A stretch of DNA of 64,000 bases from a virus, in IMG/VR virus record IMGVR_UViG_3300036985_001509, positions 1 through 64,000 of that record. The stretch is one strand, 5' to 3'. The first letter of the stretch is position 1. Each line of letters starts with the position of its first letter. The notes beneath the pieces are model-generated. The model was given only the letters and a program-made list of their open reading frames with translations. It was not told where the DNA came from and did no database searches. The position numbers and the translations under genes are program-made. This document shows, one piece after another, positions 6,437-37,738 of this stretch.

Positions 6437-9400
6437 TTATCGTTTACAAGGGTTAGATTCATCTGCCCCTTCAAGGTTTTCATTGTTAACATCAAACAAA
6501 GAAATCTGTGCAGTGTCCACTTCTTTTTCATATTTTTTAAGAAGAATCTCTGCAAGCTCTTGCATAGTCTTACCATCTGCATCTTCACCAGTAAGATACA
6601 TATCTATAAATCTAGTAGCAAACTCTGGATTATCTCTTAGGAACTCTGCCTCAGGAATAGATATTTCGCTATTTGTTTCACCAACATAATCTCCAGCAGC
6701 TTGTCCATATTTCTTTCTAATAGCCTCAGCATAATCACCAGCTACGTTTGCTGGTTCAGCTATCCTAGAACCATCAAAAGGAGTGTTAGCCATCTTCAAT
6801 ATCAATTCTGTAGGCAGTCCTTCTATCTCTGCAGGATAGTCTAGTCTGATTCTCTTCTCCTTGTCTTTATATCTCACTTCTACAGGACCTTCTGGGATAG
6901 GAGCTGTTGCTGCAGGTGTATCTACCTTCACATCAGTGGTGGGGGCAGGAGACTGCTGAATAACATCATCCACCTTAATGTTCTGAGACAGAGCAGCAAT
7001 GATGTCATTGTTAGGAATCTCGTTCTTGATTCTAACAGTGTTGTTATCCACCACAGAAGGCTTGAAGTCTGTGTAATACTCTGATCCAAAGGCTCCCTCA
7101 CCATACAGGTTGATGAGTTTGTATACATACTTGTTCTCTATCTCACCCTTGTAATTTTTTATACCAATTGTTACAGGAGTGCCATCTGGATAGGTAACCT
7201 TCTGATAACCAAGCACTTGTGTGATAAGTGGGTTACCAGCTTTCTTCATTATAGCGTATGCCTTCTTGGAAATACCTACACCCTTCAGAACATCTACAAG
7301 CTCTCCTCCGTTTTTGTTAGCCACCACTCTTTTGATCTTTACGTAGTCACCGCTAGAAATAGCATCGTTGTCATAATTCTCATCCAAATATAGGATTTTT
7401 CTGTCAGTGGACTTGATCTTAAGTGCTTCATTATTAGGGAAAACAGGAGAGTAGTATTGATACACTTCCTCACCAGCGATGTCTGAGAAGATGGGTTGCT
7501 GAGTGGTAGAAATGAAGAACACCTTTTTCAGCGGATAGAATGCCATGTTATCATCCCAGTTGTTACGCTGGAACATACCCTGAGCAAATGCTTCCATGTC
7601 TTCTGTCACTCTGAGTCCAGCAATTACAGGAGCCACAATAGCGCTGTAGTCCTCAATTGGAATGATGTTTCTGATAGACACCCCAGTCTGATATGTGCCC
7701 TGAAGGATGGACAGTGTAACAAGATCTTTGTACAGCTGGTTGGTTTTGGGGTTATTTCTAAGCTCCCTCATCATACCAATGTACATGTTCTCACTAGCAG
7801 CATCCTTCACATTTGCCATCAGCATCACTGTATGGATACCGTTCTCTTTATTGAATCTCACCTCAAGCTGTCTGAGGATAGGTAACTCGTTGGCATATAA
7901 CGTTTTAGCTTCTGCCAGACGTGTAGCCACAGATGTGTTAGCATCAATGAGTAGGGGCTTGATAGAAGCATTCAGTCCTGTTCTAGTCTGTATGATGTAG
8001 TCTAGGAAGGATGCTCTTATCTTGTTTGCTATACGAGCGTAGTCATCCTCAGATATGAAGTCTCTCTTTTTGTACTGGTCGAGGATCTGGTTTGTGATAG
8101 CCTTGAACCTGTCTTGGTCCAATACAAAGATGGAACCAACAGCATCCACGGACATGCTAAGGATTCTCTTCTGCTTTCCAATGTGAGAGTTATCAAGAAC
8201 CTCCTGGGGCGATGTGAAGATGTTGTTCTCAATAGCCATGTCAGTCTTCATAACCTTCTTACCCAGGGCATCAGAGCTCTTGAACTTGGTAGTGTCATAG
8301 TTGATGGCCTGTGTGAAGTTGAAGTTGTACTGGGCCATCTTAGCCAGTCTCAAGAACTGCTCAAATATCAACTGCTGCTCAGCATTCTTCTTAAGGGTGC
8401 TAAGCTTGTTATTCTCCGCAAACTCACGGATATTCTCCGCAAGAGCCTCTGTATCAATTGCATCAGCCACCTCAACATTATCTCCATCCTTTACAGGGAA
8501 CCTATTCTTGATGTTCTTTATGTTGTTAGCGCCAAACAGTCCACGAGATCCTGTTCCTTCTACAAGCTCCAAGTATTGCTTGATGATCGGTTGGTTCATG
8601 AACAGAGCTGCTGTACGAAGAGGAACACCAATTCTCTGCATGAGCATGAACGTACCTACAGCCTTATCACTTCTGATAATCTTCATGATGTAGGGGTTCT
8701 TAGCCACGTCCACAAAGGAGGTGATGTATCCAGACAGACCATCAGAGATGTACATCTTACCATCTGCGTCCAGTACACCAGACATAGATATGTACTCTTT
8801 TCCGTTGATAGTCACCTTGTTATGAGGCAACAGAAGAGTGCCATCACCCAAGAACTTCTGGTCAAATGCAGGAGAGTTCTTTATTCTCTCAGGATCCATG
8901 ATCACCGTAACCTTCTGAGACAAAGAGTGGTTGGTGATGTTTACAGCACCAATACCCACCCAGCGCTTAGCAGTTAAGAATGCATGTCTGAGGGTGGTCA
9001 TGTAGTTGGGATCAATGATCTTGTTCTTTACATCCGCCTCTTTATCATTAGTAAGATCTTCAATCTCTAAAGCAATCTCTTCCAGGCCACCATCTCCTAC
9101 AGGAGTGATTAGGCGTTGGAAGTTTTCAGGAAGTGTGAGCAGCTCCTCAAAGGAATCGTAGTATTCATTCTCGAGGGAGCGCTTGTACATATCCTCTACA
9201 TAAGATGTCTTGAGCTTCTCGTTCAGGATCTTTTTGGTCAGTTTTGTCTTCTTATCTGCCAGATTCTCAACCTGTTGTGCAATGTACTCACTTGCAGAAA
9301 CATTGTTCTCAGCAGCTTGATTTACAATCTCCTTAAACATGTTAAGGTGGTCGTAGAAGAAATCAATGTCTTGCTCATCCAGGGCTGCATTTATAGACTC

Positions 9401-12400
9401 TGGAGAGAAGTCTGACAGATCCTCCAGGTCAATTAGCACCTTGAACATTCTATCTCTAAACTCTTCAAACTTATCTATTCTATCAATCTCAGCCTGGATG
9501 GTGTCCTCATACACCTTTGTAAAGAACTGCTTTGTAGCTTCCTCAGACCCTTTGTGTTTAACGAGTCTAACGTTACCTGTAGCATCTACATATACGTTTC
9601 TCAGGTAGGTGTTGAGTTTATCTATGTCAAAGTCAGATCCTGCCTTGGTAACTAGCTCTGTGGGAACCACTACGGTATCACCCATGTAGGAGGGAAGGAA
9701 CCCTACCACCTTAAATGAATCTATGGAAGACAGAGACTGTGTAGGAATACGGAACCCGAGACCTCTCAGTATCTTGGCACCATCAGGACTGTTATTGATG
9801 TAATCAAATATCTCCTGGTCAGTCTTGAACTTCTTAGCAGCCAGCTTATCTCTAAACCAGTGAGGCAGTAACACCTCCATATAAGGCTTGTCCTTTGTGT
9901 AGAACTTAAGGGTGTCACTTGTCATGCGCACCTTCTTCTTCTGAGCATCATCTAGCGCTTCATACTGCTCTCTAGATATCTTCTTCCATCCATCTTCGGT
10001 CTTTTGAACCAGGCTTCTTCCTTTCTCAGCATTCTCCCACATAGTTACAGGAGCCTGAACCAAAGGTTTACCACCCATTGAAGGGGAAAGGATAGACTTC
10101 TCAATCATCGAGTAGATGATGTATCTGATCTGTACGTAGGAAGGAGACGCCTCAAAAGGAATATTGAACTCGTCGTTATCATTCAGTCTCACTGTATCTT
10201 TGGCATTCTGAGAGAGCTCTCTACGGAACATCTCATATACCAGCACCTCAGACAGAGCCTGCTTGTCCTCAAGGGTGAACCCTTGACCATTGTCTACAAT
10301 ACCCAGCTTGTTCAGCAAACGGTTGTATGCGTTTGCGTGCATTCTATCCAGGTCTCTAACATTACGCTTATACAGCTCCTTGATATATTCAGCACGTTGG
10401 CCTGTAGCTCCAAACACCTGACCGTTAGCAAACAGGTCGATGCTGATAAGCTTGGTTGACTGAGACCCACGGGTTTGTTCCTTGCCCTCATCATAGATGT
10501 TCTCCACCTGGATACCATATGCCTTCCAAGGAACATCAACAAAGTTGTTAAATGCTTCCTCGTTAAATGTACCATCAGCGTTGTACAGGTTGTGCAAGCC
10601 TTCAGCTCCCACCTTTCTTCCTGATTCTACGATAGCATATCCATATCCTTGCTCCAACATTTGTATGTAGAACTTCTCCAAACTCTTTCCTTCCACCATA
10701 CTATAGTAGATGGGCATTTGAGAGAACTTATCCAATACCAGATTGATATTGTTTGCGTTGTATTTAACACCAGATACAATAGGCTTTAATATTTCCAGTA
10801 CATTTTTAGGGGAAGGAGTGGATGTAAGCTTCTCATCGTAAGCCTTTAGTTCAGGACTACGATATGTATACTTACCCTTGGCAGCTAGCTTCTTTCTAGT
10901 GTAAGCCATTTGCCACTGGTGGAAAGCTTCAGCCTCATCAGACCACTGACCATTCTTCAGCTTAATCTCTCTGAAGGTATTGTCCATTAACCAAGAGGCA
11001 GCATCAGCTTCCTTAATACCTACATACGCAGGAATAGTGTTAGCTAATACGCTAGCTATCTTAGGATCTACAAGGGTAACAGTTCTTGTATAGGCCTTGT
11101 GATTATGATAGCCAGGATCACCAGGCTGGAGCATAATACCAGCCACCTCGTTCAAGTTGTCATTCAAGAAGGCATCAAACTCAGCCTGGTCAAACGTAGT
11201 TCTACGTGGGGACAGGAAGCTCTTGATACGCTTGGTCTCATCAAACTTACCATCCTCTGTAGAGAACTGAAGAGGATCACCAAAGAGCATTTTGTGATAC
11301 TCAATGTTATTAATGGTGTAGTTGGCTGTTCTGAACATCAACACCTGCTTCAGAACATCTTCCACCATGGGCTTGTTCTTATTGATTCCAAACTTACGAG
11401 CAAACGTGTCATCCAGACTCTCCCACATCCAGCCACTTTCAACAGGAGTGATCTGACTGTTTCTCTGCAGGATGTTCATGGTCTTTGTAGAGATGCCATC
11501 CAAGAAAACAGCCACATCCTGGTTTATAGAACTCTCGTTCTCGTTTACATACTTTGTAATCTCATCCATAGAAACTGACTTGTCAGCAATCATGCTGTTC
11601 AGTTTCTCCAGGGTCTTGGGACGCAGGATGTCATTAAAGAAGCGCAACTCCTTAGCTCTTGCTTTAACATTGTTGAGCTTGCCACGATTCTTGAAGTCAC
11701 GGGCTAGAGCAATGTCATCCATCAGATAGCCCTTGTAGATTTTGTAGATCTTGTTCCAGGCTTTACCGTCTACAAACTCCTGATAACCAACCTGATTGCC
11801 CACATTCATCATCCATTCTGTAGAGCTATCTGCAGGGATGAGAATATAGAAGTCACCGTTCAGGTTCTGGTTTATCTCAAGGGATGTTCTTTCTCCCAGT
11901 CCAAGTTTGGAGATGGACGTACTATCAGAGTCATCAGTATTATCCACCCCTTGAATGGTCATCACTTTAATGTCTCTGATTCTATTACCATCCTTGTCAA
12001 AATACAAACCACCCTTCTTCAGTATTTGAGAGTTGGTGGAGAATGTATCTCTCAGCTCAGGACGCTTCTCAAGAAGCTCATCCAGTGTAGCTGCCTCATT
12101 AAACTCGTTCTCAAACACTGATGCAGTGTTGTTATCAATATAGGCCTGCATTCTCTTTCTCTCAATACCAAAGTAGGTGATGTCCTGGTTGGGGTTGTTT
12201 GCATTTACATACAAACGACCGAGAGTATTGAGCTGTGTGGTGATACCTAGTGTCTGGCTGGTCACAGTGAGCAGGTCATCAGCTTCCTGTAAGAAGGAAC
12301 GGATCTCTCTTACAGCATCAGCAAATTGACTCTTCTGACTCTTTGCACCACCATAACTTTTCAGCTTCTTATAGGTGTCCATATCAAAGGTGACACCAAT

Positions 12401-15400
12401 CTGGGACAGAAACTCCATCATCTCCTTAGGAGACTTGATAGACATTTCCTTCAGCTTCTTGGTGTTAGCCTTATATGTTTCAGTCTTACCATTGTAAACA
12501 ACAGCCCCTTTATCTGTTCTAGCCAACACCTTCATGTTGTTCACCCAAGTGTCAACTTGTTGTCTAGCAGCAGTTTGTACGTTAGCAGCGGTGGTGAAGG
12601 TTTGATCTCCAGCAACACGCTGCACCATAGCATCAGGTCTCTGTCTAGTGAAGGTTTGCATGAAGCTGATGAAGAATCTCCAGTCCTCAGCTTTGAAGTT
12701 GCCATATGGAACAGACTTATCTTTCTTTCCACCCAGGCGTGTGAACATGCGAACGTAGTCAGAATCATTGGTTGCAAGCTCTATAAGCTTGTCCATTGTC
12801 TTATTTACATCACTGGTGTTAGACAGTCTCTCAAGCAGTGTGGCAAATGCTGTGCTGAAGTTGAGCAGCTTATATCCCAACACCTCTGGATCTACCTGAG
12901 CTTCAGGCATTTCCAAGGTGAGAGAGTTGCTCTGGTCCATAGCCTTAGCCTTGAACAGGGTGGCCAGGGTGAACTTAACATCAAAAGATGCTCCCTTCTT
13001 GATATCTATAGTGAATGCTTCAGGCGCATAGTCATTCTTATTGGTGTCCTCACCATTAAGACTCAGTCTATCCTCCAGATCAAAGTTCACTCCGAGTGTG
13101 CGGAGCTTCTCTTTTGTTCTTTCTACAAGAGCATTCCAGCGAGCGTCTCCAAGCTTGGTGCGTTTGTTTACACCATTCCATCCTTGAGTCTCACCTTCTC
13201 TCAAATACATCTCTTCCACCTCACCAAAGATCTGTTTGCTGGTGAGCTTCTGGGGGCTGTACAAAAACTTCTTTGCCTTGAGGAACACCAGACCAGCAAC
13301 TCTGGCTGTCATGTCCTCAACAAACTTCTGAGCTTGTTGCTCAGACAGTCCTTCAATCTCTTTATACTCAGCAGCATCGTTCTTCACAGTGTCAGGAAGT
13401 ACACTCTCCTTATACTTACCCATATCGATTGCATCAAACAATTGTTGTTTGAGCGTGGGTTTAGCATTGAAGCTCTTAAAGAAGTTGATGATTGATCTGA
13501 AGAATCTGAGAATCAACTCCTTAAGACTTCTAGCAGGGAGCTTCCCAACTCTGAAATCACCAAAGTCATCAGCAATCCTTTCCTTAGCTTGTGTATCTGT
13601 AGCAGCAGCGTATTCAATATCACGTCCGCTAGCTCTGTCTCTAAAGGTGCCAGACTGGCTTCTGAACTCGTTCAGGAGATCTTGTCTCTCACCAGGGGAC
13701 AGGAAGCCCTTCCATATACCCTCAAAGATTTCATGGTATTCTGTACCACGCGTAGCACTTCTGTAGAACTTGGCCACACCATTCTCAAATACACCCCAAG
13801 CTGTAATGCCTGGGTTTCTGCGGATGATGTTTTCCAACACCTCAAAAGGAATAAAAGGAACGTTGGCAGCATGCCACTTCCTAAACTCAGCTAGGTCTAG
13901 GTCATCCATTCTATCTTCCTTCTTCTCACCTTTAGCAATCACACGAAACTCTGTGCTGGGCCCTGTTGTACCCTTATTATCATAAGGTTGAGCAGCAGCA
14001 GGTTTTTCAAGAGCTCTATTGTTAATAATATCCTCATACTCACCAACAGTGGTGGCACCAGACTCTTGGTAGGAAAGAAGGCTGTGTTGGAACTCGTGCT
14101 CAATTACAAACTTCTCAAACTCTTCGTATGTAGCAAATGCGTTCTCAGGCAGAGCTGTGGCAAAAGAGCCATCCTTTTGCTTACGGGGCTTGGTCCAAGC
14201 TTTCTCATCAAACTTCTTCTGAAGAAGCTCTCTGTTTACCAATATCTTATTCTCAGTACGATTGTACTGTGCAGCACCAGGTTCTCCTGTAGCTGTTTTG
14301 ATAGAGGTTGTGTTGATTACCTCTATGCCCTTGTAGGTTTCAGCAGGTTTAGCTCCTTCTAAAGCAGCTAGTTTTTTGGCAATATTAACATCACCAATAA
14401 CATCTTTAACTGCTTGAGACTGATTATCAACTGCTTCATTCAGATTAGGTAAAGAGAAAAACATACTCTTTCCTTCTGGTGTAATAACATTCAAAAGAGA
14501 CTTACCGTTGTCTACATTTTTTATTTCTCTTTCAATGTTACCCTTACTATTTACTTTCTGTGTAATTTCTAAATTGGCTATTTTTATACTCTTCTCTATA
14601 TCAGAAACAGGAGCTGCTGTAACAACAGGTTGTGTGCGAGCTGTACCCTGTGCTTGAGCAACAGCAGATTCATCTGGTTGCAGAACAGCAGCAGTGGTGG
14701 GCTTTTCCTTCAGCTTCTTCTCTAATGATGTAGCAGCTATAAGAGCAATGTAATCACCAGCAATATCCTCATCCGTCTTAGCAACATCTCTTACGGGATC
14801 ATAGATGCCAAGTTGTTTAAGCTGGGGAACTATCGAACCGTTTATCAGTTCTTTGTTCTTTGCAATCCTAGCTACAGTGTTCTTAGTCAGTTGACTATCA
14901 ACTAGTTCCACTGTAACGGAACCATTGGGCTCAACGCTAGCTGTGAACTCAAAGTCTCCAAACTCTTTTCTGAGAGGGAACACACCAGTGGTCTTACCAT
15001 CTAGCACATAACCATCCACTGTGGGAACACCCTCTGCCTCAGCTTGTTGGGCAGGGGCTGTGTATTGTACATCCAGTTCCAGTCCTTCCAATACAGCATA
15101 CTTCTGCATGTAGGAATAGGGAATGGATTGTGTGGGCTTAGATACAGACGTGAATAAAGGAGTGTCCTTTACAGCACGCTTGCTACCATCAGGATAGCTA
15201 GCAGACAACAAATAGGAGTTGTAGCTAGACCACTCTCTGGAAGCAATCTGATTGTTATCATCTATGAAGTATTCAGTGAACCCATAGTCACTGTAAATAG
15301 TCTTATTGTTTACGTTAGAGAAGGTCTTCTGGAGTTCTTCCATTATCTCTGCTTCTCTCTCATCCACCTCAGTCAAGGGAATATCCTTGCCTGCAATGCG

Positions 15401-19483: not shown

Positions 19484-22117
19484 TTATTTTTGGCTGAGAA
19501 CATCTTGTACAGTGAGAGGTCCTATTTCTTTTAGAATTGCTTCCACCCCAGATGCACTAACAAATCCTTGTTGATTCAGATAGGCATCTTTCCAAACACC
19601 TTTATCGTAAACATACATTCTCACTGCAAATCTATCGGACTCACTTCCATCATTGTTAGAAGATCCTTCAATATCTAATCTGGTAAAAGGTGCATATCCG
19701 CCAGACTGCAATCCAGGAATATCATATCCCGTCATAGGAGCACCTACAGGCTTTCCTCTTCCTATGATGTTTGTTGTCAACTCTGGAGAACTTAGAACAT
19801 CAAACTTCACTTTAGTCATGAAGCTAGACTTGGCCATAGAAGGGAAGTACGCATTCAAGTCTGACTGACTCATAGGAATCACCTGCTTACTACCACTTTC
19901 ACCAAACAATATCAGCTTTCCTGTACCGTCAAAATTCTTCTCTATTACAAACTTTGACTTTGCCTCTTTTTGTATTTCAGTTGCCTTTGATGGTGAAAAG
20001 TCTCCAGGATTGTTTACATCCAAACTACCAAACTCATCATAATATCTTGTAGCATTTCCTATAAGCTCATTTACTCTTTGCTTAGTGACATCATCACTCA
20101 TATTCAGAGTTCCAAACGTGGTTTGGAATTCAGGCATACGTTTAGCTAGAAATGCACTTGCAGTGGATTGTGCTTGCGCATAAGTGTTCGCAATCTGTGG
20201 TTTGTAGTTTGTAACAATTTCTCCAGATCTATTCCAAAGTGTTTGTTGTCTTGATGTTAGTGATGCTTTCTTTTGTAATTGTTCTTGCGTAGGATATCTT
20301 CCAGGTTGGGCTTCATAAACAGCCACTAGATCATTTGCTAATCCTCTAAGTTTGGCAGGGACAGCTTTCAAGAATCCTTGTTTATCTAATGTTGATCCAC
20401 CAACACCAGCCGCTGCACCAGAAGGATCTATTTTTACATACTCACCAAGCATTGACCTAACCTTGTATAGTTCTTCTGCACTATACACTTCTTCTCCAGC
20501 AGTATTGTTATAACCTGCAACACCTCTAAACATGTCTGTCACCTTGGTTTGGAAAGGTGCCATCACCTTTTGAGTGGACAAAAGTAGATTCTCTCTTCTA
20601 CTCTTTTCATCATTCAGTGCGCCAATGCCCTGCAGATACTCAATTTGATTAGGGTCTTTAATACTAAACGGATTAGCCCTATACTTTTCTTCAAGGTCTT
20701 TTAATGACTTTAATCTTTGATCAGCGGGAAGATCTCCAAACAAAAGAGCTCCGTATTGATCTCTCAACTTTCCTGCATCTACACTCAAGTTGGTGATAGA
20801 GTTTTCTAGGTCAGATACAGTGGGAACCTTTACACCTGTTCCTAATCCACCATAGCTCGCAATTGGTAACTTTGCTGCAGCTTCAGCAGCTTTGTCTGCT
20901 CTCTCTGTATTAAACTTAAGTACATCAAGATCATATTGCTTTTGTCTTAACCCAAATCCTGCCCAGAACTGAGCATCTTCCACCTTTGCTCTATTCACCT
21001 GAAACTCAAGCTTCTTCTTCTCCATGTTCATTTGAGCATAGGGATTGCTGAGTATTTCCTCTGTATAGCTTTGGTTGGACAAATCTTGAGCAAGTCCTGT
21101 TAAATACTTCTGTGTGTATATACGGTATTTGTAATCCTCTAGATTGCTCACCTTACCTATCTCATCAATGTTTCTAGCAGCTTCTTTCTCAAAGTAGCCG
21201 CTGTTTAACTTATCAACCCCATTGGTAATAGCAGTTTCTATTTCTGCTCTCTGGGATGATGTTAGGTTATCGTTAGTTTTAAGCTCTACAGCTAGCTTAC
21301 TTAAATTGTCCGATAGAGCTTTCTTCTGAGTTTCGTAAGTGCCAATGATATCATTTTGGAATGTCACCTTTGTAGCATTCCTATAATGATAGTTACCTGT
21401 AATCATGAGCTGCTGCTTGTCACCCTCATCCAGGCTAGAGTAGAAGTTGTTCAGGATTTTTTCAGCGGGTGTACCTTTCACCTTGATGCGAAGCATGGCA
21501 TCATCAATCATAGGTTTACCATCACTACCCAGAAGAACTTTACCATCAGCACCTCTAACATAAGGAATGTCTACGGATTTCTCCATATCCTTGATCTTGG
21601 AGGCAACATCTCTTAGCTTTCCACCAACATCTCTATACTCAGTGTATTCTCCTGTGAACTTCTTCATCAAGTCAGAGTCATTGTCCCATCTGTTTATCTG
21701 ACTAGAAAACCACCATTCGTTCTCTGGAGAAGATTTACCTTTTCTCTTAGCTTCCTCCATATACCCCTGCTGTTTTCTGATCAGCTGGGTGGATTCATAG
21801 GCGTTCTTAACCACTGGGTCCTTGACCACCTGTCCTATCATTCCCCCTACTGAGTTGACCAGCTGGAAGTTAGAAAAGTCACCAGCAGCCACCATAGAAA
21901 GGTTGTTACCCAATTCATTCAGTTTAGACTGTAGATAGGCCTTGTGTTTTGAACTATAAATGTCCATCCCACCTATCTGATCTATTTGAGTCTGAATCTT
22001 TTGGATGCCCTCATCGTAGCGCTTCTGCTTTTCCATACCCACCTGCACCATAGCCTCCACAGGAAGCTGCTGGACGTAGGGGGTAAATTGGGGTATTATG
22101 TCAGTAAATGAAGCCAT
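19484..22117 (-). CDS. Virion cargo protein, helical, crAss-like
   Basis: An 877-residue protein ending 6 bp before the RNA polymerase gene. The N-terminus (FTDIIPQFTPYVQQLP, then a charged helical stretch with MEKQKRYDEGI) resembles a recurrent cargo protein of crAss-like phages. The protein is mostly alpha-helical, Gln/Lys/Glu-rich and without signal peptide or clear transmembrane helix. No catalytic motif was seen. By position and family resemblance it is probably packaged inside head or tail and ejected with the polymerase. The upstream 87 bp before its ATG contain no strong hairpin. Confidence 0.65.
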   Translation of the reverse strand: MASFTDIIPQFTPYVQQLPVEAMVQVGMEKQKRYDEGIQKIQTQIDQIGGMDIYSSKHKAYLQSKLNELGNNLSMVAAGDFSNFQLVNSVGGMIGQVVKDPVVKNAYESTQLIRKQQGYMEEAKRKGKSSPENEWWFSSQINRWDNDSDLMKKFTGEYTEYRDVGGKLRDVASKIKDMEKSVDIPYVRGADGKVLLGSDGKPMIDDAMLRIKVKGTPAEKILNNFYSSLDEGDKQQLMITGNYHYRNATKVTFQNDIIGTYETQKKALSDNLSKLAVELKTNDNLTSSQRAEIETAITNGVDKLNSGYFEKEAARNIDEIGKVSNLEDYKYRIYTQKYLTGLAQDLSNQSYTEEILSNPYAQMNMEKKKLEFQVNRAKVEDAQFWAGFGLRQKQYDLDVLKFNTERADKAAEAAAKLPIASYGGLGTGVKVPTVSDLENSITNLSVDAGKLRDQYGALLFGDLPADQRLKSLKDLEEKYRANPFSIKDPNQIEYLQGIGALNDEKSRRENLLLSTQKVMAPFQTKVTDMFRGVAGYNNTAGEEVYSAEELYKVRSMLGEYVKIDPSGAAAGVGGSTLDKQGFLKAVPAKLRGLANDLVAVYEAQPGRYPTQEQLQKKASLTSRQQTLWNRSGEIVTNYKPQIANTYAQAQSTASAFLAKRMPEFQTTFGTLNMSDDVTKQRVNELIGNATRYYDEFGSLDVNNPGDFSPSKATEIQKEAKSKFVIEKNFDGTGKLILFGESGSKQVIPMSQSDLNAYFPSMAKSSFMTKVKFDVLSSPELTTNIIGRGKPVGAPMTGYDIPGLQSGGYAPFTRLDIEGSSNNDGSESDRFAVRMYVYDKGVWKDAYLNQQGFVSASGVEAILKEIGPLTVQDVLSQK

Positions 22118-25200: not shown

Positions 25201-26254
25201 TACCTGTAATCACATTTCCAAGAGTGCCAGCCAAAGCATTTCCGCCTTGGTTATTCATAAAGTTTGTAAAGTCAAATCCACCTTCAGCCTTGTGAAGTTT
25301 GCCACCGTGATAGAATTGCTTATAGCGTTCGCTATCGTTCAAGGGTTCATATCCAAGATTGTCATATAATGTATTGGGAGCGAACGTGTTAGCTATTTCT
25401 CCCCCTCCCACAGATGCGCCAAACTCAGCAAGCACATTTGTACCTACACCATAAGATGGGAACATTTGCTCAGGCTGTATAACTACATCCTCTGGTCTAA
25501 CATATTGACGTCTATTGAGTTGTGCAGGAACACTAGCGGCAGCAAGACCCATAGCATTTGTAAGGGCGGACATTTGCTTAGCCTCTTTAACAGCATCTTG
25601 TTGCTGTTTAATCATGCTAAGTCCCTGTATGACATCTACGCCAGATTGTACAAACATTCCAGTTTTATCGGTTGGTGTTTTAGCACCAATAGGTGCAGCA
25701 GTGGTGCTAGTAGATGTGCTAGGAGCATAGAGAGTTGTAGTGGGAGTTCCACCTCCTGTTGCTCCAGTGCTAGACATTCTGCCTTGATCCCAAGCATCCC
25801 AATCAGACTTCCAAGAGTTATAGTCAGGGTAATTCTCAATCTTTGGCTCAATGTCAATTCCAGTTTGAGCTTTCTTAATCTTCCTACCACGCTTGGCAGG
25901 AGGTGGTACAACCTCCTCACTTAATGTTTGTGGTTTAGTAAACAGTTCTTCTGAGGCTGCCTGCAATACAGTAGGGTCTATGCCATACTGATCAGCAACT
26001 CCTCCAAGAGCTTCTAGCTTTTCTCGGTCATAACTGGTCATTCCTGTAAGCTGATATTCAAGCTCATCGTACATCCCACGGACATCTGCAGGACTGTAGA
26101 CAGGCATTTCAGCCTGACTGGTCATATAGGTGCCTATCTGGGCTTTCTTGAAAGCTTTACCATGTGCCTTCATAAACGATGCCTCATCAGGAAACTTCTT
26201 GTAGAACTCCTTCTCAGACTTAACACCAGCAATTTTCAGGATCTGTTTTTTCAT
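22205..26254 (-). CDS. Mosaic virion cargo protein with beta-barrel-like insert
   Basis: A 1349-residue protein. The start (MKKQILKIAGV, then EKEFYKKFP and KKAQIG at 36-41) is a signature I associate with cargo proteins of Bacteroidota phages. KKAQTG recurs near residue 130. A Gly/Ala/Pro hydrophobic segment around 350-390 (GTAIGGPIGGAIGG) looks membrane-active. Residues 435-625 are different in kind: short alternating strands rich in Gly, Asn and aromatics (for example NASLEWNKKIG and TNVKLSGSYG), like an outer-membrane beta-barrel. They are encoded by DNA of about 30% GC against 43-53% on either side, and flanked by an identical 15-nt repeat. Residues 900-1010 resemble a peptidoglycan-binding-like stretch (DFQKAFNREAKKLGVD, then DGDFGEQT). 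The C-terminus is Pro/Gln-rich and ends in a basic tail. Function is inferred as an ejected virion protein. Confidence 0.7.
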   Translation of the reverse strand: MKKQILKIAGVKSEKEFYKKFPDEASFMKAHGKAFKKAQIGTYMTSQAEMPVYSPADVRGMYDELEYQLTGMTSYDREKLEALGGVADQYGIDPTVLQAASEELFTKPQTLSEEVVPPPAKRGRKIKKAQTGIDIEPKIENYPDYNSWKSDWDAWDQGRMSSTGATGGGTPTTTLYAPSTSTSTTAAPIGAKTPTDKTGMFVQSGVDVIQGLSMIKQQQDAVKEAKQMSALTNAMGLAAASVPAQLNRRQYVRPEDVVIQPEQMFPSYGVGTNVLAEFGASVGGGEIANTFAPNTLYDNLGYEPLNDSERYKQFYHGGKLHKAEGGFDFTNFMNNQGGNALAGTLGNVITGSEVEAGNKIGKGIGTAAGTAIGGPIGGAIGGLLGGAVGGIIDRSEEKIKKYQAESKRNMGDIMGRNFGMGIQSQFASYMEDGGVTKAEEGTSVENCPPGFEYSESDGDCVPVNRTGIRPPMPTLDGMGDIRFGGIGSPLSLGFNVGQPNRFNIEGGYRGMIDKDKLGSSAYNLAFNFPKIFGKDRALSVTGDYDRNNLRLRTSATLPLFGGTLGIKGGYDQNFGKPQEQTNADFMRVEPPSKKGKANASLEWNKKIGKTNVKLSGSYGRPSMEDGGQTSDYQWVSHTWQPQVIASFGGRNLKDLLKPPHDAEMLRAGGHLKAYTPPSAAAMSTERPVMQMGGELQTHWGGYAEPMSYNPYLPDGGETVMFRGQSHDESDGRGNTGIGITYGENPVEVERGEPAMKLKDGSSPDSNLVVFGNLKIPKSYLPFLGNDAKGKKFKTYVADLSKKENNQNKKIDNATKMLEDLEVSTPIDRMTLNSLQYTMLGANSKLKEIADKKMAAASLQNAINDTAEEMGIVADDLARGKVKIDKEAFKDTAQGGKKLKKVKALPNVPAGQQKGDVFYGNVTQADFEAMMARNPWYDWENFDPSSDADVRDFQKAFNREAKKLGVDTRLQVDGDFGEQTVSAESLYGESKPIPTIPGGTLNISRLQELPQQAPTAAQIPPITPYKRNTLVDVLGQVVPYLRPSDSESLNPMQLMGEMYALSNNQVEPVQAQTVQPQLSSPYDISLQDILNENEATYRSQQRMVGYNPAIQGQLSAQKYAANQKVLAEQFRLNQAKRDQVYGENRNLLNQFGLQKLNIFDRQYVRQAEALSKTKATTQAALNSISDKFLRNRLENRTLATMENLYNYRYDPRFRAINMNAPFQPQIPTVYTGPDGKQYQVVGNGAPSMATPGIVPTGRVPAAAPGAPAVTQVPPPGGAEPAPGTIGPPPADFTPIAPTSIRPAQPVQPAPIDFEEEVLTEDELKGYGKKGIKVSKKKRLNSSIVRAFKNL
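24301..24326. repeat. Perfect 10-bp inverted repeat inside the cargo gene
   Basis: AATTGCGTCC, a 6-nt TCCAAA spacer, then GGACGCAATT. It lies within coding sequence (residues about 643-651), 48 bp beyond one edge of the low-GC cassette. It would form a strong hairpin in mRNA. It may be a footprint of recombination or coincidence. Confidence 0.5.
24374..24967 (-). other. In-frame low-GC cassette bounded by 15-nt direct repeats
   Basis: The plus-strand sequence TCCACCATCTTCCAT occurs at 24374-24388 and again at 24953-24967, encoding SMEDGG and YMEDGG on the minus strand. The distance between copies is 579 nt, a multiple of three, so the intervening 188 codons add or remove a domain without shifting frame. 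Sample lines inside are 27-33% G+C, while lines just outside are 43-53%. The encoded segment reads as beta-barrel-like. This has the form of a domain acquired by, or capable of being lost through, recombination between the repeats. Confidence 0.6.
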
Positions 26255-26255
26255 A

Positions 26256-29200
26256 TTAGTTATATTTGTCTAACCATCCACCCTTGGTTGGTTTGTTATA
26301 GTTTGTAAAGTTAAGCAATTGGTCTAGCTTCTTAAGGGGTTGAGCGTCAGCATTATTCACACTAATGCCCTTTTTAGCCACAGGGTATTCTGTTACATAT
26401 TCTCCATCAAACTCATAATCTTCCCCAGGCATCATGTATTGGACATCTCCTGTATCAGATACACCAACTAGGGGTTGATCTACACCCTCCATAGTGATTA
26501 CATTTGAAGGGATAATGACAGGACTTCCTACATTCTCAGGGTTCCAATATCCCATGGGATCTATAGGAATATCTCCGCCATACTGAAAAGCTCTTTTAGG
26601 AGACTCTTCTGACTCACCACCTAACATAGACGCTGCTCCCACTGCAGGAACAGCTGCTGGTAATAAACGAATAAGTGCACGTTTTTCTTCTATCGGTGTG
26701 TCTTTCTTAAAGAATCTATTTAAACTACCTTGACGTATTAACTCATCAACCATTGCATCGTCCGTCATAGTTTCCTTCTGAATCTTGTTTATTGCAGTTT
26801 GATAGTCAAGTCCCTGTTTCATAAGATTCTCATGAGTTCGTCTTCTTGCTATCATTAAATCTGAATGGAGCTCATTGGGCGATGCTTCCCATGTATATTT
26901 TCCTTTCTCAGGTTCAATCATTGCTTTACCAAATCTTTGACCAAGCTCGGTTGTAGGGTTTGGTATATAATATTCATAATCAGGAGATGTAGATGTAGTC
27001 ACTTCTCCCCACGTATCTTTTTTGTAACCATGGTAAGGCACTCCTGTTCTAGGATCATATGATATTCCTCCAAGATTCTGTGCTGTATGACCCGCCTCAT
27101 GTGCTCCTATATCTCCAACAGAACTAGGTCTAAAATAATGAGGACCTTGTCCAAAAAGCGTCATACTTGGACCTGGTCCATATGCATTGACAAAATTAAC
27201 TCCTCCTATCTTATGTCTTTCTTCAAGAAGATATTTTTTAGCATCATCTGAAAGACCAGACTCTAAAATAGATTTTGTGCTACTACCAACTACAACATCA
27301 GGTGAATCTGCAAATGGATTTGTTATAAAACGATAAGAGTCTATTCCAGTGATAGGGTCAGTAGACTTATACGAACTAGTTCCAGAAGTTTTGTAGTTTG
27401 AATAGTATGGATAATTTTCAAGAGGAGCACCTTTTGATTTTAAAATGCTTTCGATTTTCTGTTCTACCTCTGGTCTAATTGCTCCTTTTGAATCGTAGTA
27501 CCAGTCTCTAGCAAATCTAGCTCCTTGAGTATGTTCTTGTGTAGCTTTTTGTTTTGCTAACTGTACTTGTTTTTTAGTGATGGGAAAGGTCTCAGATATA
27601 GGTCTTCCTGATAAAACATCACCAATCCCACGATCTAGTCCACGATTAAAAGATTTAATAGCAGATTGTGTAGATTTAGAAAAAGGAGATAGCATTGCGT
27701 TTGTTATCTTCTTTCCTATTTTGTTGAATGATAAATCCATGCCTGCAACAGGATTCAGCATGTTGTTTGCAAACTGTCCTGTACTTCTAGTTCCAGCTCC
27801 TCCAAGAGCTCCTGTCAGCAATGGACTTACTATTCCAGCAATATAAGGTAGATTAGAATCTGTTTCTCTAGCCATGTATGGGGCTGTAGCCAATCCCTCA
27901 CCCATCTCTCCAAACATTGTGATCGGATTAATCCAGTCAGTCCAATTATTAGACCTAGACATAGATCCTAGGTTTCTACCAGACACATACTGTTGCTCTC
28001 TCCAGTCCATATCCTTCCACAACTTGCTCTCACCAGTTGGGAATGTAAATGGAACGTTAGGATTTTCTCTTGTAGCTTCAGCCGCTTTGCCTTCAGCCAT
28101 TGCTTGTCTATCATATTCCTTGTTCTCTTCTATAACACGCAAGTTTTCAGCTCTACCTCTTTCTACAGCTTGTTCACGTGTATTAGTTGCAGTGAGTGGT
28201 TTGTTCTTTTGAGTTTGTCTTCTAAGTGTCTCAGTTGTAATGCGCTTTTGCATTTCCTCTGACATGGGTTCACCCTTAGTAACAACAGGAGCAGTCTTCT
28301 TACTCTTTAAGTATTCCAACATCTTACCTGTCTGAGCCTGGGGAACATCATACTTATCCAACCAACCGCCATTCTTGCTGATTGTCTTGGGGGTGAAATC
28401 AAGTCCCTCTTGATAGAACTTCATCTCTTGGCCATTCTGTGCACTAGCTTTGGTCTTCTTAGCATAGGGACCGTTAGCAGGAGCAGGACTCTGTGTACGT
28501 GCGTACGTGAATCCTACAGAACCAGGAAGACTTCCACCCATTGCAAACTGTCCTGTAGCAGATCCATAATCTTTTCCTTCCTGAGAACTAGTAAATCTTT
28601 GTTGTTCTACAAATGTTTTCCAGCTATTTCTGTCAGGGAAGTACATTGTCTTCTGAACATCCTTATCAAATGTGGGATAGGTGTAGCTGTATTTAGTAGG
28701 CTTAGACATATCCACTCTTGCCTGTTCAAACGTGGGTTGAGTTATAGTAGGTCTAACATCAGTGAGTTCAATATTAGGAAGATCGACACTAAGATTTGGT
28801 TTTTCTAGTACACGTTTTTTATATTCTACTGGTTGTACTGGTTTTTTGTAAATAGGACTATTAGCAGTGCCATCAAAGTAAGTACCAATAGCTCTAATCT
28901 TATCACTAACTACATCTGGAGAAGAATGATACATTATTTGATTAGGTCCAAATCCCAAACTCTTATAATAATCTATTAATTTTTTATCTTCTCGTCTAGA
29001 TGAGAAATCATTAAAACCTCCTTCAAACTGATCTTTTTCGCTTTGAAAATCTTTAGATATTGGACCAAACTCTTCTAATCCTTTGACAATTTTCTTAACT
29101 CTTCCTTTTTTAAGTTCATCTGTAGTCCATTCAATATTATATTTACTAGTTTCACTACCAGGTCCCATTAACTTATCCTGCATTTGATAAGCTTTGTACA

Positions 29201-30023
29201 AATTCAAACTGTCCTGGTAACTTCTTAGTCTAGGATCTCTAGGATCTGATGTATAGATGGGTTGTCTGATTCCTTTTTGAGCCATGGGAACGGTCTGGTT
29301 AGCTCCAGCCATAGGAGGCTGTAGAATGCCACCACTTTTAAAATTAAACTTTACATCTCTATTCCAAACAGGTTTACGACTTTCAGCATTTCTAATAGAT
29401 TTTATAAGTCTAGTGTATTCCCGTATTTGTGAATCATCTCTGAAAGGACCAGTTCTATAGTTCTCAACCCACTCATAACCTTTTGCAAGTTTACCCATAG
29501 ATTTTGGAGGAGTGTTTTTGTCTCCTTCTCTGTATTCTTCCATACCTGTACCAAGTCCTCTTACCCATCCAGATTTAGTTTCATAGTATTCTGGAACAGT
29601 TGCTCTTTTCTCAAGATAGAATTTATCAAATCTATCATCTGTTGGTAAAGCATATGGAATAGGCTGGTTATAGGACTTTACCCACTCATCACGAAAGTTT
29701 GTAAGATAGTCTCTTGAATATGGTGTGAACGTATCTCCAGTTTGATATTTTGGTAAATCACCACCATCTCTCCAAGCACCACCCCAGGCAGGATTGAAAT
29801 TGAATCCTTTATCTGTTAGTCCTCCCATTGTTCCCTCAATACCATTCTGTGCTTGGGGAGCATCAAATTTATCTAACCAGCCACCAGACTCAACTTTATA
29901 AGGTTTAGCCCCACCAGCAATAGCTCCAAAGAACTTACGTTGTTGTTCTGTAAGAGGATGCCCATGCACCTCCTTGTCGTGAAGGATCTTCTTTGCTTTT
30001 GTGGATGTGAGCTTCTTTGCCAT
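26256..30023 (-). CDS. Mosaic virion cargo protein with HEAGH metallopeptidase-like domain
   Basis: A 1255-residue protein. Residues 21-38 (HGHPLTEQQRKFFGAIAGG) form a motif recurrent in crAss-like cargo proteins. The segment GGWLDK(F/Y)D(A/V)PQAQ(N/T)G appears at 47-61 and 552-566, and its first half again as the last eight residues (1248-1255), dividing the protein into two large blocks. In the second block HEAGH at 975-979 is a zinc-peptidase motif, and ELHSD around 1051 may supply a further ligand. Parts of both blocks (about 108-414 and 714-1128) are encoded by AT-rich DNA (27-37% GC in lines sampled), unlike the flanks, suggesting acquired modules. The stop is 1 bp before the next gene's start. 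The protein is probably packaged and ejected. The peptidase could act on the cell wall, on other cargo proteins or on host targets; the sequence does not tell. Confidence 0.7.
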   Translation of the reverse strand: MAKKLTSTKAKKILHDKEVHGHPLTEQQRKFFGAIAGGAKPYKVESGGWLDKFDAPQAQNGIEGTMGGLTDKGFNFNPAWGGAWRDGGDLPKYQTGDTFTPYSRDYLTNFRDEWVKSYNQPIPYALPTDDRFDKFYLEKRATVPEYYETKSGWVRGLGTGMEEYREGDKNTPPKSMGKLAKGYEWVENYRTGPFRDDSQIREYTRLIKSIRNAESRKPVWNRDVKFNFKSGGILQPPMAGANQTVPMAQKGIRQPIYTSDPRDPRLRSYQDSLNLYKAYQMQDKLMGPGSETSKYNIEWTTDELKKGRVKKIVKGLEEFGPISKDFQSEKDQFEGGFNDFSSRREDKKLIDYYKSLGFGPNQIMYHSSPDVVSDKIRAIGTYFDGTANSPIYKKPVQPVEYKKRVLEKPNLSVDLPNIELTDVRPTITQPTFEQARVDMSKPTKYSYTYPTFDKDVQKTMYFPDRNSWKTFVEQQRFTSSQEGKDYGSATGQFAMGGSLPGSVGFTYARTQSPAPANGPYAKKTKASAQNGQEMKFYQEGLDFTPKTISKNGGWLDKYDVPQAQTGKMLEYLKSKKTAPVVTKGEPMSEEMQKRITTETLRRQTQKNKPLTATNTREQAVERGRAENLRVIEENKEYDRQAMAEGKAAEATRENPNVPFTFPTGESKLWKDMDWREQQYVSGRNLGSMSRSNNWTDWINPITMFGEMGEGLATAPYMARETDSNLPYIAGIVSPLLTGALGGAGTRSTGQFANNMLNPVAGMDLSFNKIGKKITNAMLSPFSKSTQSAIKSFNRGLDRGIGDVLSGRPISETFPITKKQVQLAKQKATQEHTQGARFARDWYYDSKGAIRPEVEQKIESILKSKGAPLENYPYYSNYKTSGTSSYKSTDPITGIDSYRFITNPFADSPDVVVGSSTKSILESGLSDDAKKYLLEERHKIGGVNFVNAYGPGPSMTLFGQGPHYFRPSSVGDIGAHEAGHTAQNLGGISYDPRTGVPYHGYKKDTWGEVTTSTSPDYEYYIPNPTTELGQRFGKAMIEPEKGKYTWEASPNELHSDLMIARRRTHENLMKQGLDYQTAINKIQKETMTDDAMVDELIRQGSLNRFFKKDTPIEEKRALIRLLPAAVPAVGAASMLGGESEESPKRAFQYGGDIPIDPMGYWNPENVGSPVIIPSNVITMEGVDQPLVGVSDTGDVQYMMPGEDYEFDGEYVTEYPVAKKGISVNNADAQPLKKLDQLLNFTNYNKPTKGGWLDKYN

Positions 30024-37261: not shown

Positions 37262-37738
37262 TTACTTTTTCCATTCGTGATAAATATGCTGATATCTATC
37301 GTCGGTTTTGATGTAGTGAGACAACAATCTTGATGTGTTTCTGGAGGGTTTGAAATACCACAGTCCTGAGTGTCTAAACCTAGCTGTGTCTTTAAACCAA
37401 ATCCATCCGAAGAAATACCCCTCTGTGTGGAAATTGAAGTTGTAGATGCGCTTGCCCTTTTCCTTGGTCTTCTTCCAATCTATGGGCAGGTTGACAAACT
37501 CTTTACCATCCACCCCCTTCATCTTTCTGCGCTTCTTCTTATTAATAGAGAACTCACCAAACCCAAACGGAAGCTTTGCTCTTTCCCCTGTCTCCAGGAT
37601 GTATTCTTTGAAAGCTTCGTTATAGGTGTAGATGATATCTCTCCATTCATCAAACGTAAGTTTGATAGAAGGATTCTTCTTACAGAAATTGTTGTAGTTT
37701 TCTTTGCTGGCGCTTCTCCAGTCTATTTTGATTCGCAT
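37262..37738 (-). CDS. Conserved virion/connector protein, possibly HU/IHF-like
   Basis: A 158-residue basic protein. Residues 27-65 read as helix-helix then KLPFGFGEFSINKKK, resembling the beta-arm entry of HU/IHF proteins (GFG.F.v). The rest contains DWKKTKEKGK and an aromatic stretch EGYFFGWIWF. Crassvirales conserve IHF-like subunits in this interval between portal/capsid and tail genes. They may serve structural ring roles instead of binding DNA. It starts 3 bp after the upstream gene. The assignment rests on motif and position only. Confidence 0.45.
   Translation of the reverse strand: MRIKIDWRSASKENYNNFCKKNPSIKLTFDEWRDIIYTYNEAFKEYILETGERAKLPFGFGEFSINKKKRRKMKGVDGKEFVNLPIDWKKTKEKGKRIYNFNFHTEGYFFGWIWFKDTARFRHSGLWYFKPSRNTSRLLSHYIKTDDRYQHIYHEWKK

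Follow-up and report, generated by a model that had tools for sequence, protein, structure and literature searches.

A modular slot protein with recurrent WLDKY tags as a candidate cargo carrier of environmental crass-like phages

The slot protein, its locus and its scaffold

The subject of this study is P0001 (hereafter the slot protein), a protein of 1255 amino acids (aa) encoded by the minus-strand open reading frame (ORF) at 26256-30023 of the window, a 64,000-nucleotide stretch of virus record IMGVR_UViG_3300036985_001509 (91,446 bases in all). The protein consists of a scaffold into which modules are inserted and exchanged at joints, and the scaffold carries short tags that are conserved as peptides and were lost where the slot protein became fused to the product of the next gene. 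The virus was identified as a crassvirus, because neighbouring proteins fitted the Pfam profiles of the crass muzzle (crAss_MUZ, E=1.3e-33), major capsid (Crass_capsid, 1.4e-26), ring 1 (CrAss_Ring_1, 1.4e-11) and ring 2 (CrAss_Ring_2, 7.2e-17) proteins, in agreement with an earlier note on this DNA, which had referred to Crassvirales.

Relatives were collected as 51 loci from a single-protein scan of IMG/VR. The gene order in nearly all of them was ring 2, a 158-aa protein, ring 1, muzzle, a 288-aa protein, the slot protein, the next protein (probable cargo protein C1, see below), an 877-aa protein and RNA polymerase (RNAP), with L015 as the exception. Within this conserved order the slot protein gene was by far the most variable in length (193-1739 aa among 72 distinct complete proteins), while the neighbouring virion genes were far less variable. 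The slot protein of L015 (9737-12253) was a more distant relative with different synteny; it has the hydrophobic segment of P0001 (residues 642-762, 67% identity), and its P0001-type N-terminal add-on sits at the opposite end of the protein.

P0001 matched no Pfam or PHROG profile at the cut-off and gave no tblastn match to crAss001; no crAss001 homologue of the slot protein was detectable, and the slot protein was absent from most database phages. A scan of genome contigs returned one weak match, probably phage sequence within a metagenome-assembled genome, and a description of the motif or the family was not found in literature searches.

Most relatives covered P0001 in three stretches only, at about residues 47-91, 482-552 and 1142-1255. 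With a profile from L009, whose slot protein of 204 aa was the shortest intact member of the 51-locus set, these stretches proved to be one continuous scaffold of ~201 residues, the remainder of P0001 being inserted. All features of P0001 and the next protein given here lie on the minus strand. The scaffold comprises block B (residues 47-91, 29751-29885), block C (residues 488-566, 28326-28562; GSLPGSVGFTYAR..KKTKASAQNGQEMKFYQEGLD.. and the second tag copy), to which 280 IMG/VR stretches were related, and block D (residues 1141-1255, 26259-26603). It is preceded by an N-terminal add-on (residues 1-46, 29886-30023; MAKKLTS..FFGAIAGGAKPYK), which is one of the three types of N-terminus that replace one another within the family; across the 72 proteins, nothing stood before the tag in 21, a CxCG zinc ribbon in 19, a KKLT..GAIAGG type in 21 and other sequences in 11.

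An AlphaFold2 model of L009, based on 25 aligned sequences, returned a predicted local distance difference test (pLDDT) below 50 for residues 11-99 and 167-193, and a beta domain at about 100-165 with a pLDDT of about 82. The scaffold is predicted to be mostly disordered, with the small beta domain in the middle of block D as its sole folded part. Fold searches with block D gave weak cupin-like matches only, none with E <0.001, and searches of solved structures gave nothing significant; the profile of block D varied too much for it to be scanned for as a degenerate pattern. Block D was also found at 51% identity in L054 (Leptolyngbya phage Lbo-JY46, a cyanobacterial phage; 8971-12482), which has a similar gene order and lacks the WLDKY tag and the KIAGVK domain.

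Exchangeable modules, tags and joints

Inserts enter the scaffold at a handful of fixed joints and belong to unrelated types, including zincin-like HExxH domains (up to three per protein), DUF6973, a histidine phosphatase (L036) and an amidase-like domain that scored below the cut-off (L045), among others. In P0001, insert 1 (about residues 92-487, 28563-29750) is partly common to L002 (86% identity), and insert 2 (about residues 567-1140, 26604-28325) consists of a hydrophobic segment followed by a zincin-like domain with the zinc-binding motif HEAGH at residues 975-979 (27087-27101). The HEAGH domain aligned with inserts of L096 and L093 and, as judged by profile comparison, is probably related to the commoner PTE-type zincins (hhalign probability 76%). 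A pattern scan for this insert found no close relative, its relatives coming from the slot-protein family itself.

Related modules occurred at different joints (38% identity between L033 and L041, 47% between L019 and L034), and a module of the L021 type was found as a free gene product, with 40% identity to gp041 of phage phi4:1. Slot lengths diverged despite at least 85% DNA identity in the 288-aa gene, for example 335 against 933 aa and 666 against 1522 aa. Loci L005 and L008 showed 99.87% identity in the 10,131 bases upstream of the slot protein and 99.3% in the 3.1 kb downstream of it, and L005 has an extra module of ~238 aa at a joint, starting with AQVGG and ending with QNGG directly before the tag. 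The tag beside this module showed several synonymous differences from L008 in otherwise near-identical loci, indicating that it came in with the module. A mosaic protein built of exchangeable blocks, as the earlier note had proposed, was therefore strongly supported by the scaffold with inserts at few joints, the recurrence of modules and the L005/L008 exchange. Its description of AT-rich inserts between motif regions of normal GC content held in direction: the inserts of P0001 had 35-42% GC (insert 1, 35.2%; HEAGH part, 37.5%) against 41-49% in the motif blocks, and scaffold GC exceeded insert GC in 59 of 63 family genes.

The repeated motif stands in P0001 as GGWLDKFDAPQAQNG at residues 47-61 (29841-29885), GGWLDKYDVPQAQTG at residues 552-566 (28326-28370) and GGWLDKYN at residues 1248-1255 (26259-26282), the last eight of the protein. 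Shorter AQxG sites include AQKG at residues 248-251 within insert 1 (29271-29282) and AQNG at residues 528-531 (28431-28442), a frequent insertion point among relatives, and the next protein has KKAQIG at its residues 36-41 and KKAQTG at 127-132. The three motif positions had been given correctly in the earlier note; what it had overlooked was that the motif stands at the protein ends in essentially every relative.

Across 43 relatives (32,159 aa), motifs of the type WL[DESNQ][KRSE][YF] were counted 83 times against 0.3 in shuffles, and AQxG 105 times against 10.2. When the gene cluster was compared, WL[DENSQ][KR][YF] occurred 142 times in slot proteins (0.2 expected) and essentially nowhere else, and AQxG was enriched 10.5-fold in the slot protein and 4.3-fold in the next protein, with no enrichment in the muzzle, rings, RNAP or 877-aa protein. 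By these distributions the motif is really two elements, a WLDKY tag found in the slot protein only and an AQxG joint found in the slot and the next protein. In the 158-aa protein between the rings (37262-37738 in the window) and its homologues, the looser pattern [AKMS][QKE][NDKEQ]G was found 31 times against 4.3, probably reflecting one conserved position. The 877-aa protein (19484-22117) had no Pfam or PHROG match, and its only tblastn relatives, both weak, were in Leptolyngbya phage Lbo-JY46 and phage csAssE-Sib.

Sixty-six of the 72 distinct complete slot proteins were unfused crassvirus members, and the tag stood at the C-terminal end in every one (66/66; 63 by pattern and three with WLTKY), with GGWLxKY repeated near the N-terminus in most. 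A DNA pattern for the C-terminal tag retrieved 85 stretches from 2.9 million viral contigs, of which those that could be judged were scaffold proteins. At 56 of the 123 insert boundaries, which are approximate positions from profile matches, the looser joint pattern was no more than 25 residues away, against 3.7 for windows inside inserts.

The GGWL.K copies within a gene shared synonymous codons at a level of 0.449, against 0.420 expected by chance, which argues that selection acts on the tag peptide; on this test, the idea that the motif is repeated at the DNA level was rejected. Between distant viruses, the scaffold segments showed an excess synonymous identity of about 0.3-0.4, against about 0.1 in neighbouring genes, unlike the folded core of block D, where it was 0.07 at the largest distances. 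Such an excess fits scaffold segments serving as homologous crossover regions between viruses, with codon selection as an alternative, and the one exchange tract seen directly, that of L005 and L008, ends in scaffold segments. The recombination joint, one of three roles that the earlier note had offered for the motif, thus did not hold for the repeated motif as a DNA site, but the scaffold segments do resemble anchors of this kind.

The next protein and natural fusions

The next protein (W22205; 22205-26254; 1349 aa, with AQxG joints) matched cr8_1 gp90 around SHE..GIGI..G with a probability of 93%, and cr8_1 gp90 in turn had 61% identity with crAss001 gp45 across 83 residues, in a region other than that matched by W22205. 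Because of this link and its position after the muzzle, the next protein is probably cargo protein C1 of the crAss001 gp45 family. In crAss001, C1 is bound to the portal and also within the tail (PMC10172136). In the window, the N-terminal domain of C1 (residues 1-41, 26132-26254; ILKIAGVKSEKEFYKKFP..FKKAQIG) directly follows the slot protein's terminal tag. In Cellulophaga phage phi4:1, a distant cultured relative, gp040 joins a D-block to C1, and in gp041 a lysozyme module and two HExxH modules are linked through AQAGG; both are annotated from experimental virion tandem mass spectrometry (MS/MS).

The slot and next proteins form one chain in L016/L035, L068/L076 and L062, and the fused loci fell in three separate, well-supported places of the next-protein tree. 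The five changes printed on that tree overstate the number of events, since L080, L087 and L100, which lie beside fused loci on zero-length branches and are not labelled fused, are duplicate or near-identical contigs. In all three fused clades the number of WLDKY copies was zero, and AQxG was kept. At the site of the tag, L062 reads MKNKSLNKYEQGG where the unfused L103 reads MANWLDKYEQGG, with W replaced by S and the flanks retained; L016 reads KAEEGGVLRQK where L064 reads KAEDGGWLDKYEQGGLVLKQK, with the tag deleted and the flanks again retained. The tag and the C1 N-terminal domain were both present in the 62 unfused loci compared and both absent from the five fused loci, save for a weak 12-residue remnant of the domain in L016/L035; the remaining row of the comparison, L004, is a broken gene. 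The combination of fusion and tag loss suggests that the tags are plugs attaching cargo inside the virus particle. Among the three roles in the earlier note, the sorting signal was the best supported, for the WLDKY part of the motif, which is terminal and was lost in three fused clades.

At the same junction, 60 loci had a QLTxFxN segment on one side of the gene boundary only, as if that boundary had shifted past it: the segment closed the slot protein in 36 and stood close to the start of the next protein in 24. As counts of loci, 29 and 24 of these were found by pattern and seven more by eye (LDxLxNFTNYN at the slot protein's end). Because the segment was never on both sides, the unit of tag, stop, start and C1 N-terminal domain resembles a cassette that can sit before or after it.

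Proposed docking of exchangeable cargo and its alternatives

We consider it fairly probable that P0001 serves environmental crass-like phages as a modular carrier of virion cargo, with tags that dock exchangeable cargo onto C1 or onto C1's site. The GGWLDKY tags would be docking or loading signals that attach the carrier non-covalently to C1 or to the site that C1 occupies in the virion, with the helical N-terminal domain of C1 as the most likely partner. The inserted enzymes would be packaged with C1 and ejected with it at the start of infection. Where the scaffold and C1 form a single polypeptide, a covalent bond would substitute for the plug, allowing the tags to decay. The AQxG joints may be exposed linkers and, by a weaker inference, may be cut by a protease to release the modules, and new modules may be acquired through homologous recombination via scaffold segments. 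In a more specific and more tentative form of this proposal, a split connector, GGWLDKY at the carrier end would plug into a socket formed by the KIAGVKSEKEFYKK domain with which C1 begins, so that interchangeable enzyme cargo could be attached to the protein leading ejection; gene fusion would be the covalent counterpart. Docking was preferred mainly because the distant N-terminal tag was also lost in the fusions, which is not explicable mechanically.

Several points weigh against this proposal. Loss of the C-terminal tag and the C1 N-terminus could follow mechanically from any fusion, so that only the loss of the N-terminal tag requires a functional reason, and with only three fused clades a sign test on these alone would not be significant. 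When compared directly, the W22205 family matched crAss001 gp45 only weakly (probability 26%). A read-through model of a natural gene junction, with TAA read as Q, predicted the N-terminal domain of C1 to be helical (pLDDT about 80) and the tag to form a short helix in a block with a mean pLDDT of ~65, which is suggestive at most; the model returned no contact information and is therefore weak as evidence of docking. We infer virion presence for the family's own viruses, and the homology with phi4:1 extends to a single block and a single module. Pfam profiles recognised no protease in the 30-odd proteins that were scanned, a subset of the ORFs.

The tag might instead bind another structure, such as the portal, the capsid interior, the tail barrel or DNA, independently of C1 and in an encapsulin-like manner, becoming redundant after fusion because C1 itself is loaded. 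The terminal position of the tag and its loss in fusions are also expected in that case, and crAss001 C1 is both portal- and tail-bound (PMC10172136). However, the presence of the C1 N-terminal domain in all unfused and no fused loci would be left unexplained, though it may be mechanical, and we regard binding elsewhere as rather unlikely. It also seems unlikely that the whole motif, WLDKY..AQxG, is a protease site and that the slot protein and C1 are polyproteins from which cuts at AQxG release free modules as the head matures. Such processing has a precedent in phage T4, where gp21 cuts core and internal proteins. AQxG, the part of the motif for which the protease site, the third role in the earlier note, is possible, is enriched in these two proteins and not in the muzzle, ring, RNAP and 877-aa proteins, lies on both sides of inserts, can separate successive inserts (L002), sets the tags and the C1 N-terminal domain apart from the remaining chain and survives in fusions, and in phi4:1 one module is made as a separate gene product. 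However, WLDKY closes the chain in almost all members, so that cutting there would free nothing, and it was lost in the fusions, where processing ought to matter more; the Pfam scan also yielded no protease, and the words "protease", "proteolysis" and "cleavage" are absent from the paper on the crAss001 structure (PMC10172136).

That the conserved blocks are kept as DNA crossover sites for module swapping, with no function as peptides, appears very improbable. The excess synonymous identity of the scaffold segments (the folded core of block D apart) and the L005/L008 tract would be accounted for, but the copies within a gene differ in synonymous codons at chance level, the tag copies were specifically lost in fusions, and anchors alone leave the tag at the stop codon of 66/66 members unexplained. 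Recombination was therefore disfavoured as the sole explanation, and anchoring was accepted as an additional property of the scaffold.

By its logic, not by homology, the nearest analogy to docking by GGWLDKY tags is found in the internal head proteins IPI-III of T4 with their capsid targeting sequence, a targeting peptide that a review presents as an evolutionary route to the loading of various proteins (PMC9026906). In both systems a short shared peptide stands on differing proteins; in T4 these are packaged and ejected, and in the slot protein the tag is conserved on unrelated cargo and would have the same targeting role. IPI-III carry N-terminal propeptides of 10-19 residues on separate small proteins and are cut by gp21, whereas the slot protein is one large scaffold that is tagged at each end and has several slots within it. 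Encapsulin cargo-loading peptides are similar, by analogy only, in that a short C-terminal peptide is proposed to recruit unrelated enzymes, but they have no sequence relation to the slot-protein tag, which is also N-terminal and internal. Among crass-like phages, the slot protein is linked to cargo protein C1 (gp45 in crAss001) in that the C1 gene adjoins its own, the two products being probably co-packaged and sometimes one polypeptide. The gp040 and gp041 proteins of phi4:1 resemble the family in their AQAGG-joined modules and in the D-block with C1, but lack WLDKY, and the modules form a separate gene outside any scaffold. In polymorphic toxins a fixed trafficking part is followed by a variable, C-terminal toxin domain, whereas the slot protein has internal modules at several joints and a fixed C-terminal block with a tag.

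Crass-like phages are very abundant, and their cargo besides RNA polymerase, and the way in which it is loaded, are almost unknown. The slot-protein family offers a concrete candidate for a loading signal, together with a natural experiment in its fused and unfused members. The slot itself is a catalogue of enzymes whose probable destination is the inside of Bacteroidota-type cells. Provided that it acts in trans, the tag would offer a portable means to load proteins into such virions.
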